Source: a virus
Virus record (IMG/VR): IMGVR_UViG_3300028384_000457
Coordinates: 1-26,422 of that record
Length of the DNA: 26,422 nucleotides
Strand: one strand, 5' to 3'
A program made the translations under genes and the position numbers. How positions within the stretch are numbered: the first letter of the stretch is position 1; every line of letters starts with the position of its first letter. Below the pieces are notes generated by a model. The model saw only the letters and a program-made list of their open reading frames with translations, made no database searches and was not told where the DNA came from. Shown piece after piece: positions 11,810 through 16,263 of the stretch.

Positions 11810-12002
11810 TTTCTGGATTCACCTAGTAGCATTCTTCCAAGTTGTTGTGATGAATTGTATTCAACCAGTCAATTGGAAGTATTGCTACAGGGTGGACCAG
11901 TGGTTGATACCAGAAGTCGTCCAAGGATATAAAATTTGGAGTGGGCAAGAAAAACCTTATCAAAAAGAACAAGAATATCTTAAAACCCTCCAGTCTAAAT
12001 AA
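11802..12002 (+). CDS. 66-aa protein of unknown function with hydrophobic N terminus
   Basis: The gene runs from ATG 11802, overlapping the thioredoxin-like stop by 8 bases, to TAA 12000-12002. The first 18 residues (MYSFWIHLVAFFQVVVMN) form a hydrophobic helix that could be a membrane anchor. The rest is Trp- and Tyr-rich, then charged (EKPYQKEQEYLKTLQSK). The last codons lie inside the following terminator hairpin, and the stop codon is in its loop. I do not recognise the family. Confidence 0.7.
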   Translation: MYSFWIHLVAFFQVVVMNCIQPVNWKYCYRVDQWLIPEVVQGYKIWSGQEKPYQKEQEYLKTLQSK

Positions 12003-12020
12003 TTAGACGGGAGGTTTTTT
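11987..12020 (+). terminator. Strong intrinsic terminator between early and late modules
   Basis: Left arm CCTCCAGTCTAA (11987-11998), loop ATAA and right arm TTAGACGGGAGG (12003-12014) make a 12-base stem with one A-G mismatch. TTTTTT (12015-12020) follows. It should end the transcript carrying 43-uvsX-41-mazG-thioredoxin. The right arm contains GGGAGG, which is also the ribosome site of the next gene. Confidence 0.85.
11995..12001 (+). promoter_or_regulatory. Late-promoter-like CTAAATA inside the terminator
   Basis: CTAAATA matches the late motif seen elsewhere in this window. It straddles the hairpin's left arm and loop. A late start about 6-7 bases downstream would leave out the left arm, giving a leader of roughly 14 bases with GGGAGG (12009-12014) exposed seven bases before ATG 12022. 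Confidence 0.5.
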
Positions 12021-12021
12021 C

Positions 12022-13173
12022 ATGGCATTTAATAGCATACCTAAAAATCTTTCAGAGATGCGAGCGGTTGCTGGCAGCAGCATCGACGAAAAATATAGAG
12101 GTGGAATTATCCAGTTCTATAGTAAAATTAAAAAAGCACATGGGATGGAAGATCCCTTAGCATTTAATCCTACAACTAAATCTGGCAAGAGTTGTAAATT
12201 AGTTCGTGCTCTTAAAGGAGAAGTAGATATTGCTAAACTAAAAAGAGAATGTAACTTAGATTCTAATTTTAAAATCAGTTGGGGAGACGGTAGCAGAGGC
12301 AATCGTGGCACAGGTAATACTGGTAATCTATTTGAGGGACAACTTGAGAAAGGATTAAATGATTGGATTGAAGAAGGAGACTATCGCACTAATCCATACA
12401 GAGATTTTATTGCTGATTTAATTAAATTTTATGACCTTGAGGATTGTCAGATTGTAAAGGTAATTGCTGAGGGAGGAGAAAATAAAAAGAGACCAATTAC
12501 ATTTGATGGAGGTAACTGGAAGATTGGTGATGCTGATGCCAATCACTATAATATTGGTCCAATCGTTACTGACCTAACTCTAACAACCAAGTGTAAAGGG
12601 AAACCTGAGAAATTAATTTACCTTTCACTGAAGAAAGGTGGAACAACTACGATGTCAAATCTTGGTGTTAAGAAGATATTCACCAAAGAAGATATCCAAA
12701 ATGGAATGATTGAAACAGACATTGGCAAAAAAATTTTAAATACTTTTGGCATAGATAATTCTAGGTTTTGTCGAATATTTAATGAAGCAATGATTGGTGC
12801 GGTGAAGAGTGGTGGTGATGATACAAATCCATCATTCAACAGAACACTTCTCCAAGGAATGATTCGTGGTTCTATTGGATATGGATATCATTATACACAT
12901 AAGCAAAGTGGAAATAAGATTAAAAATTTCCCGATGACAAAGGAAGTTTGTGATAGGGCGACCCATGTCAGTTCTGTAACTGTCCATTATGGAGGCAAGA
13001 CTGGAACTGGACAACGTGTAGATATCACGGTTAAAACACCTGTCATGGAACTGAAGTTTAACATTCGTGACACAAGCGGCAGTTCAGACCCATGGCCTGA
13101 TAAACTACAGTCAGCATACAAGTTCAAGGGCGAGCAGATCTTCAGCACACCAGAGGACGGTTACGAAGACTAA
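12022..13173 (+). CDS. 383-aa protein of unknown function, possibly a PD-(D/E)XK-type nuclease
   Basis: I do not recognise this protein by name. It is 383 aa and soluble, with a Lys-rich N-terminal helix region and a Gly/Arg/Asn-rich linker (GDGSRGNRGTGNTGN, 88-102). A helix with acidic residues (LFEGQLEKGLNDWIEE) is followed by GPIVTDLTLT (D184) and LIYLSLKKGGTTTMSNLGVK (S202-L-K204). The order acidic helix, D, strand, [E/S]-x-K resembles PD-(D/E)XK nucleases of the type with ISLK in the second catalytic strand; this is inference. It has its own GGGAGG ribosome site and late-like promoter. TAA overlaps the next gene's ATG, which codes for the ligase-like protein, so a nucleic-acid role is plausible. 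A structural role cannot be excluded. Confidence 0.8.
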   Translation: MAFNSIPKNLSEMRAVAGSSIDEKYRGGIIQFYSKIKKAHGMEDPLAFNPTTKSGKSCKLVRALKGEVDIAKLKRECNLDSNFKISWGDGSRGNRGTGNTGNLFEGQLEKGLNDWIEEGDYRTNPYRDFIADLIKFYDLEDCQIVKVIAEGGENKKRPITFDGGNWKIGDADANHYNIGPIVTDLTLTTKCKGKPEKLIYLSLKKGGTTTMSNLGVKKIFTKEDIQNGMIETDIGKKILNTFGIDNSRFCRIFNEAMIGAVKSGGDDTNPSFNRTLLQGMIRGSIGYGYHYTHKQSGNKIKNFPMTKEVCDRATHVSSVTVHYGGKTGTGQRVDITVKTPVMELKFNIRDTSGSSDPWPDKLQSAYKFKGEQIFSTPEDGYED

Positions 13174-14375
13174 TGGCAAACATCAAACAGCTCAAGCACC
13201 TAGAACACCTTGAAGATGAGATGCTGAACTATGGCGTCGAAGGATGTATGGCAGCAGTATCGTTCCTGAAAGAACTGAGGAAGATGCTGGGTCATCAGGA
13301 GAGTAGTGGTTTCATGCAGACTAAATGGGACGGTGCTCCTTCTGTCATCTGTGGTGTGGATCCTCTTGCTAATATTTTCTTTGTTGGAACGAAGTCTGTA
13401 TTTAACAAAGACACTCCTAAGATTTGTTATTCTGAGGATGATGTTGATGAAATGTATAGTGGAGATCTCGCAGAGAAACTTAAGTTCTCTTACAGATACT
13501 TTAGTGAGTTGGGAATCAAAGGTGTGATTCAGGGCGACCTTCTCTTTACATCTGATTTAAAACGAGAGACTATTAATGACGAAAAACTCTATACTTTCAG
13601 ACCCAACACAATTACCTATGCTATTCCTGTTGATCATCCTATTGGAAAAGCAGCGGGCAGAGCAAAGATCGGTGTAGTATTTCATACGCATTATGCTGGA
13701 TCTGATCTTCCTACAATGCAGGCAATGGCAGGTGCTCCTGTTGATACCTTTAATAAAATTCCTGAAGTTCTAGTTGTAAAGAATGATACTCCTATGAACC
13801 GAGTTGGTTTCTCTCTCACAGAGATGACTAAGTTTGACAACTATATCACTAAAATTGAACGCATGTGTAAGATCTGTGGTGATTTCTTAGATGAATTAGT
13901 TGGTGCTACTGGTACAACTGGAGATGCCAAGTTCCACATAGCATCTTACTTAAAGCAGTTCTTTAATAACGAGATCAAGAATGCTAGAAGCATTGGTAAT
14001 ATCGATGAAAGTTTGTATGATCTAGCAAACTTCTATCATGAGAAGATGAGTAAGGAACTTGCCAAGATCAAGACAGCAGCAAACTTAACCAAAAAACGCA
14101 ACCTTGTTTATCAGAGTGAAAACTACCTTGTGGATAATGTCTATAAGTTTAAAGCGATGCTGACCTTGTATAAAGAACTTCAGGCAGTGAAGCAAATGGT
14201 TATAGATAAACTGGACCACCTGGAAGAGTTCAGAACTTTTGTTCAAACGGAGAAAGGATATAAGGTCACAACTCCAGAAGGATATGTTCTTCACAAGGAT
14301 GGCAGTATGATTAAGTTTGTCAATCGCTTGGAGTTTGCTTACAATAACTTTACCTTACAGAAGCAATGGCGTTAG
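13173..14375 (+). CDS. Putative polynucleotide ligase / covalent nucleotidyltransferase-like protein
   Basis: The protein has 400 aa. FMQTKWDGAPSVICG (K51-W-D53-G54) fits ligase motif I KxDG, whose lysine takes AMP. FFVGTKSVFNK fits the following strand. GVIQGDLLF (118-125) fits motif III. Near the C terminus, TPEGYVLHKDGSMIKFVNR (E369-G370, K381) fits motifs IV (EGxV) and V (KxK-like). A mostly helical insertion of about 170 residues (210-365) separates the two halves, which is unusual. Family members seal DNA or RNA ends through an enzyme-AMP intermediate; substrate and cofactor are unknown. It is coupled to the 383-aa protein upstream (TAATG-type overlap) and overlaps the NMN-adenylyltransferase-like gene by 10 bases. 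Expression is probably late. Motif calls are by eye. Confidence 0.6.
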   Translation: MANIKQLKHLEHLEDEMLNYGVEGCMAAVSFLKELRKMLGHQESSGFMQTKWDGAPSVICGVDPLANIFFVGTKSVFNKDTPKICYSEDDVDEMYSGDLAEKLKFSYRYFSELGIKGVIQGDLLFTSDLKRETINDEKLYTFRPNTITYAIPVDHPIGKAAGRAKIGVVFHTHYAGSDLPTMQAMAGAPVDTFNKIPEVLVVKNDTPMNRVGFSLTEMTKFDNYITKIERMCKICGDFLDELVGATGTTGDAKFHIASYLKQFFNNEIKNARSIGNIDESLYDLANFYHEKMSKELAKIKTAANLTKKRNLVYQSENYLVDNVYKFKAMLTLYKELQAVKQMVIDKLDHLEEFRTFVQTEKGYKVTTPEGYVLHKDGSMIKFVNRLEFAYNNFTLQKQWR

Positions 14376-14929
14376 ACGGAAAGGTTTGCTACTTTACATT
14401 TGGTAGGTTTCAACCAGCAACTACTGGGCATGGAGAAAACTTTGCTGGTGTAAAACGTGCTGCTGGTCAGCATGACTATCGCATTTATATTTCTCAAACT
14501 GTAGATAAGAAAGGTAGCAATCCTTTACCACCAGATAGAAAGTTATATTATATGAATAAGTCTTTTCCAGAACATCGTGGTAAAATATTTTCTGGACCTA
14601 AACAACCTGTCGCTATCCTCCAAGATCTTATGCTGGCAGGATACGATGAGGTTGTTTTTTTAGTAGGTTCTGATAGAGTTTCTGCCATGCAGTTCCTTCA
14701 TAAATATAACGGAACTGAGTTTTCGTTCAGAAAGATTGATATTCAGTCTTCTGGAAGTAGAGACGCTGATGGTGATACCTTTGCCATTTCTGGAACTAAG
14801 ATGAGACGTGCGGCATTTGCTGGCGACTTCGATACATTCAGAAAAGGTATTCCTAGAGCATTAAGTGATCGTGATTGTCGCGCTCTTATGGGTGAAATTG
14901 CGGCAGCACTACCTAAGAATTTTAAATGA
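14366..14929 (+). CDS. Nucleotidyltransferase of the NMN-adenylyltransferase/cytidylyltransferase type
   Basis: The protein has 187 aa. GRFQPATTGH (13-22) is the (G/A)RFQPxHxGH signature of NadM/NadR-like enzymes, with Thr at the first His position. FLVGSDR (98-104) and ISGTKMR (141-147), the ISxTxxR motif, complete the HIGH-superfamily active site. The family moves a nucleotidyl group onto NMN or a phosphorylated small molecule; NAD synthesis or salvage is the best guess, but substrate cannot be read here. The loss of the first conserved His may change activity or specificity. It overlaps the ligase-like gene and, as ATGA, the next small gene. Confidence 0.85.
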   Translation: MALDGKVCYFTFGRFQPATTGHGENFAGVKRAAGQHDYRIYISQTVDKKGSNPLPPDRKLYYMNKSFPEHRGKIFSGPKQPVAILQDLMLAGYDEVVFLVGSDRVSAMQFLHKYNGTEFSFRKIDIQSSGSRDADGDTFAISGTKMRRAAFAGDFDTFRKGIPRALSDRDCRALMGEIAAALPKNFK

Positions 14930-15180
14930 AAGATTTTAAGAAATTACGAGAAGAAGCATTACGCCAACAGCAAAGACAGCAGGAAGTATTCAAAGAAGGC
15001 GATGCTATTATGTCATCACGAACTGGCGATAAAGGATACATCCATCGCCTTGGTGGAAACTACGCTATTGTTATAACAGAAGATGGAAATATGCTTCGTG
15101 AGTGGATGAGAAATATTAGATCTATAAATAATACAAGAAGAACCTCCCTTTTAAACGATGAAGTATCAGGAACCAACTAA
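14926..15180 (+). CDS. Small SH3/KOW-like protein of unknown function
   Basis: The protein has 84 aa. A basic, Gln-rich N-terminal helix (LREEALRQQQRQQEVFKEGD) precedes a short beta-rich region, IMSSRTGDKGYIHRLGGNYA and IVITEDGNMLREWM. The Gly turns and strand spacing resemble a small SH3/KOW barrel; this is inference. The start overlaps the previous stop as ATGA. A perfect TATAAATA lies within its last codons and probably serves the next gene. Confidence 0.75.
   Translation: MKDFKKLREEALRQQQRQQEVFKEGDAIMSSRTGDKGYIHRLGGNYAIVITEDGNMLREWMRNIRSINNTRRTSLLNDEVSGTN
15123..15130 (+). promoter_or_regulatory. T4-late-type promoter element TATAAATA
   Basis: A perfect TATAAATA is embedded in the 3' end of the preceding gene, 27 bases before ATG 15158. 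It would start a transcript for the zinc-knuckle/EF-hand protein and the structural-looking genes after it. No clear Shine-Dalgarno follows. Confidence 0.55.
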
Positions 15181-15808
15181 TACAGTAAAAAATCAAGATG
15201 AGTTTTCGTCAGGATTGATGGAAGCTTATGATAGATGGATGGGTGGAGATACGTTCCAGAATACTGAAATCGTAGAATCTTATGGTAATAAGGCACCTCA
15301 GTCACACGGTGCTGAAATTGAAGATACCACTAAGAAAAAGAAGACTGCTAAGAAAGGTTCTTATGTAGGACAAGAAAGTGCTCCTAAGAATGAGGAAGTT
15401 CAAATTTGCGAAAAGTGTGGTGGCGAGCATCCTACCGATGAGTGCCCTAACATTCTTGAGCGTGAAGAGTATGAGATTGATGGCGAAGTTCATGTTCTTG
15501 AGTTGATCAAGATGGAGGGTAGCATGGAGACAGCACGTAATAATGTTGGTGCTTCTACTTGCTGGAAAGGATATAAAGCAAAGGGAACTAAGAAGAAAGG
15601 CGGTAAGACCGTTCCCAACTGTGTAAAAGAAGAGGAACTAGCAGAGAAGAAGTTAGATAAGGTTGATCATTCTGAACTAAAGGGTAAGCACGCTGATCGT
15701 AAAGATAAGGACATCGATAACGATGGTGATGTAGATGGTTCTGACAAGTATCTACATATGCGTCGTAAGAAAGTTTCTAAGATCATTGCAATGAAAGGTA
15801 AAAAATGA
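15158..15808 (+). CDS. Basic protein with zinc-knuckle-like motif and EF-hand-like loop, probably virion-associated
   Basis: The protein has 216 aa. Residues 84-96 read CEKCGGEHPTDEC, a CX2CX3HX4C arrangement one residue shorter than a retroviral zinc knuckle. Residues 125-155 are a basic segment bounded by two Cys (STCWKGYKAKGTKKKGGKTV then PNC). Residues 185-196, DIDNDGDVDGSD, match the 12-residue EF-hand/dockerin calcium loop. Lys-rich linkers join these modules, and the last 20 residues are basic. No catalytic motif is seen. The modular, metal-binding, basic nature suggests nucleic-acid or assembly binding in the virion. The start overlaps the upstream gene by 23 bases; ATG 15218 (MEAYDRWMGG) is an alternative. 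Confidence 0.8.
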   Translation: MKYQEPTNTVKNQDEFSSGLMEAYDRWMGGDTFQNTEIVESYGNKAPQSHGAEIEDTTKKKKTAKKGSYVGQESAPKNEEVQICEKCGGEHPTDECPNILEREEYEIDGEVHVLELIKMEGSMETARNNVGASTCWKGYKAKGTKKKGGKTVPNCVKEEELAEKKLDKVDHSELKGKHADRKDKDIDNDGDVDGSDKYLHMRRKKVSKIIAMKGKK

Positions 15809-16263
15809 AATCGTTTGAACAATTCCGTGAGGAGTGTGGTTGCGAAAAAAAGAATCGCAAGGTAAAATCGAAAAAGAAAAGCACTGTGGAAGTGATGCCA
15901 ACAGTTAATGATGGTGAGAAGGGTATGACTACAAGACCCAATAACGAGAGTGTTAAGTTCGCTGGCAACTATCAAGGTCCATTGTATGCAAGACATCCTG
16001 ATTTGGTCAAAGAAGAGGCACCAAAGGGAAAAAAGTATGAGCGTATGATCAAACATATTAAAAGATCATACGCTAAAGATGGCAAACTGTCCGACGATGA
16101 AAAGTCTATCGCATACGCTACCGCGTGGAAACATAAGAACAAGAAAGAATCTTTTGAAGGTGGTGTTCAAAAAGCACGCCGCGATTATCGTTCTGGCACG
16201 CTATTGACCTTTAAACAATTTGTTGCTAAACTTACTGACATTTTAGATGAGTGGGAGAAATAA
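15805..16263 (+). CDS. Basic protein, probably virion-associated (152 aa)
   Basis: It begins MKSFEQFREECGCEKKNRK, a short amphipathic lead followed by a Lys-rich segment. The middle has VKFAGNYQGPLYARHPDLVK, and KKYERMIKHIKRSYAKDGKL plus SDDEKSIAYATAWKHKNKK form a helical basic module that I associate with cyanophage structural proteins. A repeated-looking KSFEQFREE / LLTFKQFVAKLTD pattern sits at the two ends. The start overlaps the previous stop as ATGA. The function is unproven. Confidence 0.75.
   Translation: MKSFEQFREECGCEKKNRKVKSKKKSTVEVMPTVNDGEKGMTTRPNNESVKFAGNYQGPLYARHPDLVKEEAPKGKKYERMIKHIKRSYAKDGKLSDDEKSIAYATAWKHKNKKESFEGGVQKARRDYRSGTLLTFKQFVAKLTDILDEWEK

Follow-up and report, generated by a model that had tools for sequence, protein, structure and literature searches.

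The internal proteins of bacteriophage T4 are taken into the head through their 10 N-terminal residues, of which those at positions 4 and 7 act as guides and those at positions 8 and 10 permit cleavage (PMC9026906). Enzymes are also carried in the T4 head, among them Alt, which uses nicotinamide adenine dinucleotide (NAD+). Here we describe a locus of three overlapping genes in a 26,422-nucleotide stretch of viral DNA (IMG/VR record IMGVR_UViG_3300028384_000457, positions 1 to 26,422; hereafter the window). Gene 1 occupies a position that appears to hold nuclease-like proteins, gene 2 encodes a DUF6267 protein that is likely to have a ligase-like fold, and gene 3 encodes a nucleotidyltransferase (NTase) resembling nicotinamide mononucleotide (NMN) adenylyltransferases (NMNATs). 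As with the T4 internal proteins and Alt, these are late genes of a T4-like phage that are predicted to specify enzymes, and the N-termini of relatives carry aromatic residues at positions 4 and 7, a hydrophobic residue at position 8 and Glu at position 10. They differ from the T4 set in the kinds of enzyme, in the missing targeting sequence of genes 1–3 and in that their head location would be extrapolated from relatives. The reading that we prefer, and to which we give an even chance, is that the locus may be a late-expressed cassette of enzymes that are packed in the head and injected with the phage DNA, a variant of the T4 internal-protein theme. It is preferred because gene 3 orthologues and a member of the slot occupied by gene 1 are virion proteins, and because some DUF6267 proteins, as well as gene 3 orthologues, have targeting-like N-termini. 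The virus record itself spans only the window, and Synechococcus phage S-RSM4, a close relative (gene 2 is 95% identical), was used as the near relative for comparison. The features of the locus are as follows.

11987 to 12020, plus strand: RNA hairpin and T tract, with the late-promoter-like TCTAAATA and the gene 1 Shine-Dalgarno sequence inside; recognized by folding z-score, conservation in S-RSM4 and motif enrichment.
12022 to 13173, plus strand: gene 1, phrog_8438, 383 amino acids, with invariant E105, D184 and S202-x-K204; a member of a hypervariable, nuclease-like slot.
13173 to 14375, plus strand: gene 2, DUF6267 / phrog_455, 400 amino acids, with covalent-nucleotidyltransferase motifs I (K51xDGAP), III, IV and V; AlphaFold pLDDT 89.
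14366 to 14929, plus strand: gene 3, T4-GC190 'cytidylyltransferase' / phrog_3041, 187 amino acids, with T/HxGH and ISxTxxR, NMNAT-like; orthologues are virion proteins.
14926 to 15180, plus strand: gene 4, 84 amino acids, a domain that in other phages forms the C-terminal part of gene 3 orthologues (phrog_395); N-terminus MKDFKKLREEA, degenerate capsid-targeting-like.
15805 to 16263, plus strand: gene 6 of the coupled chain, 152 amino acids; N-terminus MKSFEQFREEC, degenerate capsid-targeting-like.

The virion data come from published analyses of orthologues in S-SM1, S-SCSM1 and S-CREM2, and not from the phage of the window. T4-GC190, the family of gene 3, was detected in S-SM1 virions and belongs to the core of 16 cyanophages (Sullivan et al., PMC3037559). 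An NMNAT was reported in virions of S-SCSM1, in a paper that cites the same for S-CBWM1 (PMC9602691), and the S-CREM2 virion list contains a cytidylyltransferase and the two proteins that follow it (PMC10665884). The S-SCSM1 gene directly upstream of the NTase is annotated 'virion protein', and this protein is a member of phrog_1462, which occupies the slot in S-CAM4 and ACG-2014h.

All three virion-detected NTase orthologues start with MKxFxxFLxEA (S-SM1, MKKFSAFLNEAE; S-SCSM1, MKSFLQFLKEAA; S-CREM2, MKNFSSFLTEAD), and the positions conserved in this cyanophage sequence coincide with the important ones of T4 IPIII. A search motif based on IPIII, of which one earlier, looser form was also tried, also recovers T4 Alt and gp24. 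It was present in 8 of 219 S-CREM2 proteins, 5 of these in the virion (p 0.02). When only non-structural virion proteins were counted, the motif was found in 4 of 13 (a SAM hydrolase, gp13, a kinase and the NTase) versus 3 of 167 undetected proteins (Fisher p 5e-4). The NTase N-termini had been seen in other loci before S-CREM2 was tested, and the test is therefore independent in its data and not in its idea. The same motif lies directly before the HLEHLED core in 6 of 56 diverse DUF6267 proteins; related-looking DUF6267 N-termini (MFSFKGFITKDK, with no Glu at position 10) were missed by it and were not counted as support. In the window, genes 4 and 6 begin with a degenerate form that has Arg at position 8, and S-RSM4 has a g21 protease gene. 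In the literature searched, from which subscription papers were excluded, no account was found of cyanophage proteins with capsid-targeting sequences.

Among individual S-CREM2 proteins, the virion-listed gp6, gp13, gp14 and gp136 (loci L258 and L260; SAM hydrolase, small protein, APH-like kinase and gp136) share a capsid-targeting-like start. A virion-detected 'Cas9-like' protein, gp12 of S-CREM2 (L258, 7704–10313, minus strand), contains LRFASFMAEAA near residue 17; if translation begins there, this would make a good capsid-targeting-like start.

For T4 genes e, soc and 49, a hairpin arrangement allows translation only of transcripts begun at the late promoter. The window is similar in that its late promoter lies inside a hairpin that would mask the ribosome site in longer transcripts; it differs in that a T tract follows the hairpin. 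The stems pair 11987–11991 with 12010–12014 and 11993–11998 with 12003–12008, with the loop at 11999–12002 and the T tract at 12015–12020, and the gene 1 Shine-Dalgarno sequence GGAGG (12010–12014) is within the 3' arm. The predicted folding energy is −15.7 kcal/mol (z −4.5; 0 of 200 shuffles were as stable), and an equivalent promoter-hairpin device with a compensatory pair change is found in S-RSM4 at 44480. At least two terminator-like hairpins with a late-promoter motif and a ribosome site inside, like that at 11987–12020 of the window, are present in S-RSM4 (87377 and 44480).

The sequence TCTAAATA (11994–12001) is one base off the published cyanophage late promoter motif, NATAAATA (PMC2984593). 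The mainly coding strand of S-RSM4 has 28 copies of CTAAATA, versus 2 on the other strand. Coding-strand copies fell ≤60 nucleotides upstream of an annotated start in 17 of 28 cases for CTAAATA and in 26 of 38 for ATAAATA, compared with 12 of 109 for seven control anagrams. The late-type promoter and the separate ribosome site of gene 1, both originally noted from the sequence of the window, are confirmed. In read-through transcripts the hairpin would hide the ribosome site of gene 1, and transcripts begun at the late promoter, having no 5' hairpin arm, would be translatable. Late expression of the three genes is supported.

Of the three products, gene 3 has the clearest assignment. It belongs to phrog_3041/395, labelled 'cytidyltransferase', and G-R-F-x-P-x-T-x-G-H, K-x-x-N-P-L and S-x-T/S-K-M-R are conserved in its family, with G21, H22, S142 and R147 invariant in 22 sequences. 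Most members have Thr in place of the first His of HxGH, a feature shared with pantetheine-phosphate adenylyltransferases. The CTP_transf_like domain was matched by 19 of 22 relatives at E ≤ 0.1 (best 2.1e-9) and was above the cut-off in the fusion protein of locus L198; gene 3 of the window was itself below it (14 versus 21 bits). The best real PDB matches of the family profile were weak (NadR, E 0.018; archaeal NMNAT, E 0.063), and the NTase of locus L213 matched the NMNAT family phrog_3462 (1.4e-4). Gene 3 thus resembles NadR and archaeal NMNATs in its GRFxPxTxGH, NPL and SGTKMR motifs, and some relatives carry a kinase fusion, as NadR does; it differs in having TxGH rather than HxGH and a DxKKNPL motif, and its relatives add an N-terminal targeting-like extension and a C-terminal small domain. 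An NMNAT-like fold is well supported, as had been proposed from the window sequence, and as regards specificity for NMN the sequence leans only weakly towards NadR/NMNAT. Because the nucleotidyltransferase motifs are invariant, the idea that gene 3 is simply a structural protein was rejected.

Gene fusions link the NTase to its neighbours. DUF6267–NTase fusions are found in locus L198 (591 amino acids) and in the S-PM2 protein A0A0M6VVW4, a P-loop kinase–NTase fusion in L213 (913 amino acids; AAA_33 2.8e-12) and an NTase–gene 4 fusion in phrog_395. P-loop (AAA_33/zeta-like) kinases with a targeting-like N-terminus, fused to or adjoining an NMNAT-like domain, were observed in other marine phages (L213, 7174–9915; L211, 5348–6031). 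Several GenBank records (L154, 6757–7014, and similar) and phrog_4808 label the gene 4 homologue a subunit of ribonucleotide reductase, and this label looks mistaken.

Gene 2 was identified as Pfam DUF6267 (421 bits) and phrog_455. Of 50,697 phage records, 468 contain the family, almost all of them from cyanophages, and it is in 0 of 14 control cellular genomes; it was not found by name in the literature searched. A simple motif search had placed S-CREM2 among phages without DUF6267, a result that was overturned by a Pfam search (gp87). In two alignments, one of 8 and one of 46 sequences, whose members share as little as 26% and 35% identity, respectively, with gene 2 of the window, there is no variation at K51-x-D-G-A-P, K74, Q120, D122, H171, T172, E369-G-x-V and K381. 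In the AlphaFold model (pLDDT 89.3, pTM 0.79), K51 ends one strand and the next strand follows, and motifs III, IV and V are on or beside strands, as in the ligase superfamily. A Foldseek search of the PDB with this model gave no match below 0.1; T4 Rnl2 was second (0.35), and Naegleria and archaeal RNA ligases and a capping enzyme were also matched, weakly (E 0.35–2.9). Against viral models (BFVD), the best named non-DUF6267 match was the RNA ligase of phage Atu_ph07 (E 2.4e-3, probability 0.95). Comparison of DUF6267 with an NTase control profile gave no signal. One low E-value PDB sequence match was rejected, being to a designed helical protein that aligns with the helical insertion, and nothing else was credible.

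Gene 2 is therefore like T4 Rnl2 and other covalent nucleotidyltransferases in its KxDG, in the order of motifs III, IIIa, IV and V, in their strand placement in the model and in a weak structural match to phage RNA ligases. It is unlike them in that DUF6267 is a long form with a helical insertion of ~100 residues, in its motif III (QGD) and motif V (K-L/F-V), and in that profile similarity was undetectable. A nucleotidyltransferase (ligase-like) fold is likely; ligase activity is plausible but unproven. The prediction of a ligase-like enzyme thus held for the motifs and the model layout, gained a weak structural match and found no backing in profile comparison. In lineages like that of the window, DUF6267 is probably a ligase-fold member of the cassette. 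Two annotation points concern this family: DUF6267 is in fragments in L217 (3581–4804), and the annotated start of P-SSM2 DUF6267 (L242, 4100–4912) removes the conserved N-terminus.

Gene 1 (phrog_8438) is found in few phages (24 records by tblastn), and its position, directly upstream of DUF6267 or of the NTase, is held elsewhere by the phrog_1462, 2496, 13937, 22045 and 3060 families. E105, D184, S202 and K204 are invariant in 27 gene 1 homologues, with Ser replacing the Asp/Glu of (D/E)xK. The pattern D...[hydrophobic]S[LMV]K was present in 7 of 8 slot family representatives, and in 29 of 46 slot proteins versus 6% in shuffles; the control set for D...SxK was contaminated by slot proteins of other loci, which leaves its Fisher value unclean and makes the shuffled rate the better yardstick. 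The eighth representative (S-CAM9) has D...SHK and matches a type II restriction-enzyme model (1.4e-9), and the slot member of locus L182, in which SxK is likewise present, matches the same model (PADLOC PDLC03459; 6.1e-11). The slot thus resembles type II restriction endonucleases through long matches in two of its proteins and through D...SxK across its families; it differs in that gene 1 of the window has no such match and a fold that was not recognized (structure model pLDDT 80). The phrog_1462 profile gave nothing credible against PDB sequences, and its comparison with the gene 1 family (hhalign) was not significant; the slot proteins may therefore be analogous rather than one family. In L223 (4553–5986) and L226 (4274–5707), the N-terminal domain of the gene 1 family is joined to an unrelated C-terminal part, which suggests domain swapping in the slot. 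The suggestion that gene 1 is a possible PD-(D/E)XK nuclease is therefore plausible at the level of the slot, with D...SxK and two type II restriction-enzyme matches, and drew no match for gene 1 itself.

The open reading frames are as originally described and overlap by 1 base (genes 1 and 2) and 10 bases (genes 2 and 3). The chain continues with a 4-base overlap into gene 4 (start at 14926) and with genes at 15158 and 15805. The motifs that had been singled out are exact (gene 2, KWDG at 51–54, QGDLLF at 120–125, EGYV at 369–372 and K381; gene 3, GRFQPATTGH and ISGTKMR; gene 1, D184...S202-L-K204), and their invariance across homologues shows that they are not due to chance. Upstream of the three genes are mazG and a thioredoxin gene, and the trio lies among the replication genes gp43, uvsX, gp41 and gp61. 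The order slot protein–(DUF6267)–NTase is kept across Kyanoviridae and in Methylophilales phage Melnitz. Co-occurrence across cyanomyoviruses, a check that had been proposed, is seen as conserved order and fusions and not as a trio that is always together; a strict obligate trio is not supported, because DUF6267 is located elsewhere in S-SM2, S-SCSM1 and S-CREM2.

If the locus is a packaged cassette, the late promoter would cause its products to be made during head assembly. In relatives, the MKxFxxFLxEA N-terminus would bring the protein into the prohead, where it would then be cut by the gp21 protease; in the lineage of the window, co-packaging might proceed via gene 4, with its degenerate targeting sequence and its fusion to gene 3 elsewhere. 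Gene 1 would be one variant of a nuclease that resembles restriction endonucleases and diverges fast. Gene 2, as a nucleotidyltransferase of the RNA/DNA-ligase superfamily, would form lysyl-AMP at K51 and most likely seal or adenylylate nucleic-acid ends. Gene 3 would make or restore an adenylylated cofactor, most likely NAD+. A bolder version, which we consider distinctly unlikely, is that marine T4-like heads carry all three kinds of enzyme (hypervariable restriction-enzyme-like, NMNAT-like and ligase-like), loaded by T4-type targeting sequences, as an offensive injected nuclease-plus-repair kit; host or rival DNA would be cut on arrival, and phage DNA would be protected (e.g. by a phage-coded methylase) and resealed.

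Several results weigh against packaging and injection of these enzymes. Genes 1–3 of the window have no capsid-targeting-like N-terminus. The IPIII-modelled motif matches UvsX in many loci and is not specific alone. DUF6267 is missing from the S-CREM2 virion list although it is encoded there and has been found in no virion so far, and it lies away from the NTase in S-SM2, S-SCSM1, S-CREM2 and P-SSM2. CsCl-purified virions can hold contaminants, a caveat given by the authors themselves (PMC9602691, PMC10665884). As to the enzyme classes, the DUF6267 profile aligned with T4 Rnl2 and gp30 at <1% probability (hhalign; shallow profiles). There was no PD-(D/E)XK-fold nuclease among the 50 best PDB matches of the gene 1 model (Foldseek), and the gene 1 family profile matched no known family and gave nothing credible in a PDB sequence search.

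A rival account is an intracellular late repair unit, in which ends of phage DNA or RNA that arise in packaging or recombination would be trimmed by the nuclease and sealed by DUF6267 in place of the missing gene 30 ligase, gene 3 would supply NAD+ to it, and virion detection would reflect carry-over. The invariant nucleotidyltransferase motifs and the position among replication genes suit such a unit, as does the absence of g30 from cyanomyoviruses, noted in the literature (PMC2984593). The proposed check, that the gene 30 ligase is absent alongside DUF6267, held in 7 of 8 DUF6267 phages, which carry no canonical ATP- or NAD+-dependent DNA ligase or RNA_ligase family protein (PF01653 and PF09414 were in 0 of 8). 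The exception, S-CRM01, has a PF01068 ligase and thus both; moreover, a host ligase can serve the phage, and the repeated finding of gene 3 orthologues and a slot protein in virion proteomes, together with the targeting-like N-termini of the former, argues for another setting. We regard a purely intracellular unit as rather unlikely. The original prediction of a break-processing and end-joining or NAD-linked unit stands for late use and, to differing degrees, for its enzyme classes; its setting is better read as packaged and injected.

Virion presence also speaks for a locus that serves NAD+ metabolism or counter-defence, with an injected NMNAT-like protein (plus, in some phages, a P-loop kinase as in NadR) restoring NAD+ against NAD-depleting defences and DUF6267 acting as an accessory non-ligase adenylyltransferase. 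The weak NadR and archaeal NMNAT matches of gene 3, the phrog_3462 match and the kinase–NTase fusion point the same way. The Thr shared with pantetheine-phosphate adenylyltransferases does not, and the nuclease-like slot would be left unexplained; we judge this account unlikely. That genes 1–3 are merely unrelated neighbours on one late transcript, in a part of the genome where genes are replaced quickly, would agree with the separability of DUF6267 and the NTase in several genomes and with the great diversity of slot proteins. It is very unlikely given the DUF6267–NTase fusions and the gene order conserved from Kyanoviridae to Melnitz.

Reports of NMNAT-like proteins in virions of cyanophages go back to 2010, and their route of entry was not explained in the virion papers examined. 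A T4-type targeting-like sequence on virion NMNAT-like proteins, a SAM hydrolase and a kinase offers a direct, testable answer, and a sequence rule by which injected proteins of abundant marine myoviruses might be predicted. The analysis also marks a fast-evolving nuclease-like gene slot beside DUF6267, and it proposes a function class for DUF6267, a widespread family without assigned function in which cyanomyoviruses may have a ligase-like enzyme of their own.

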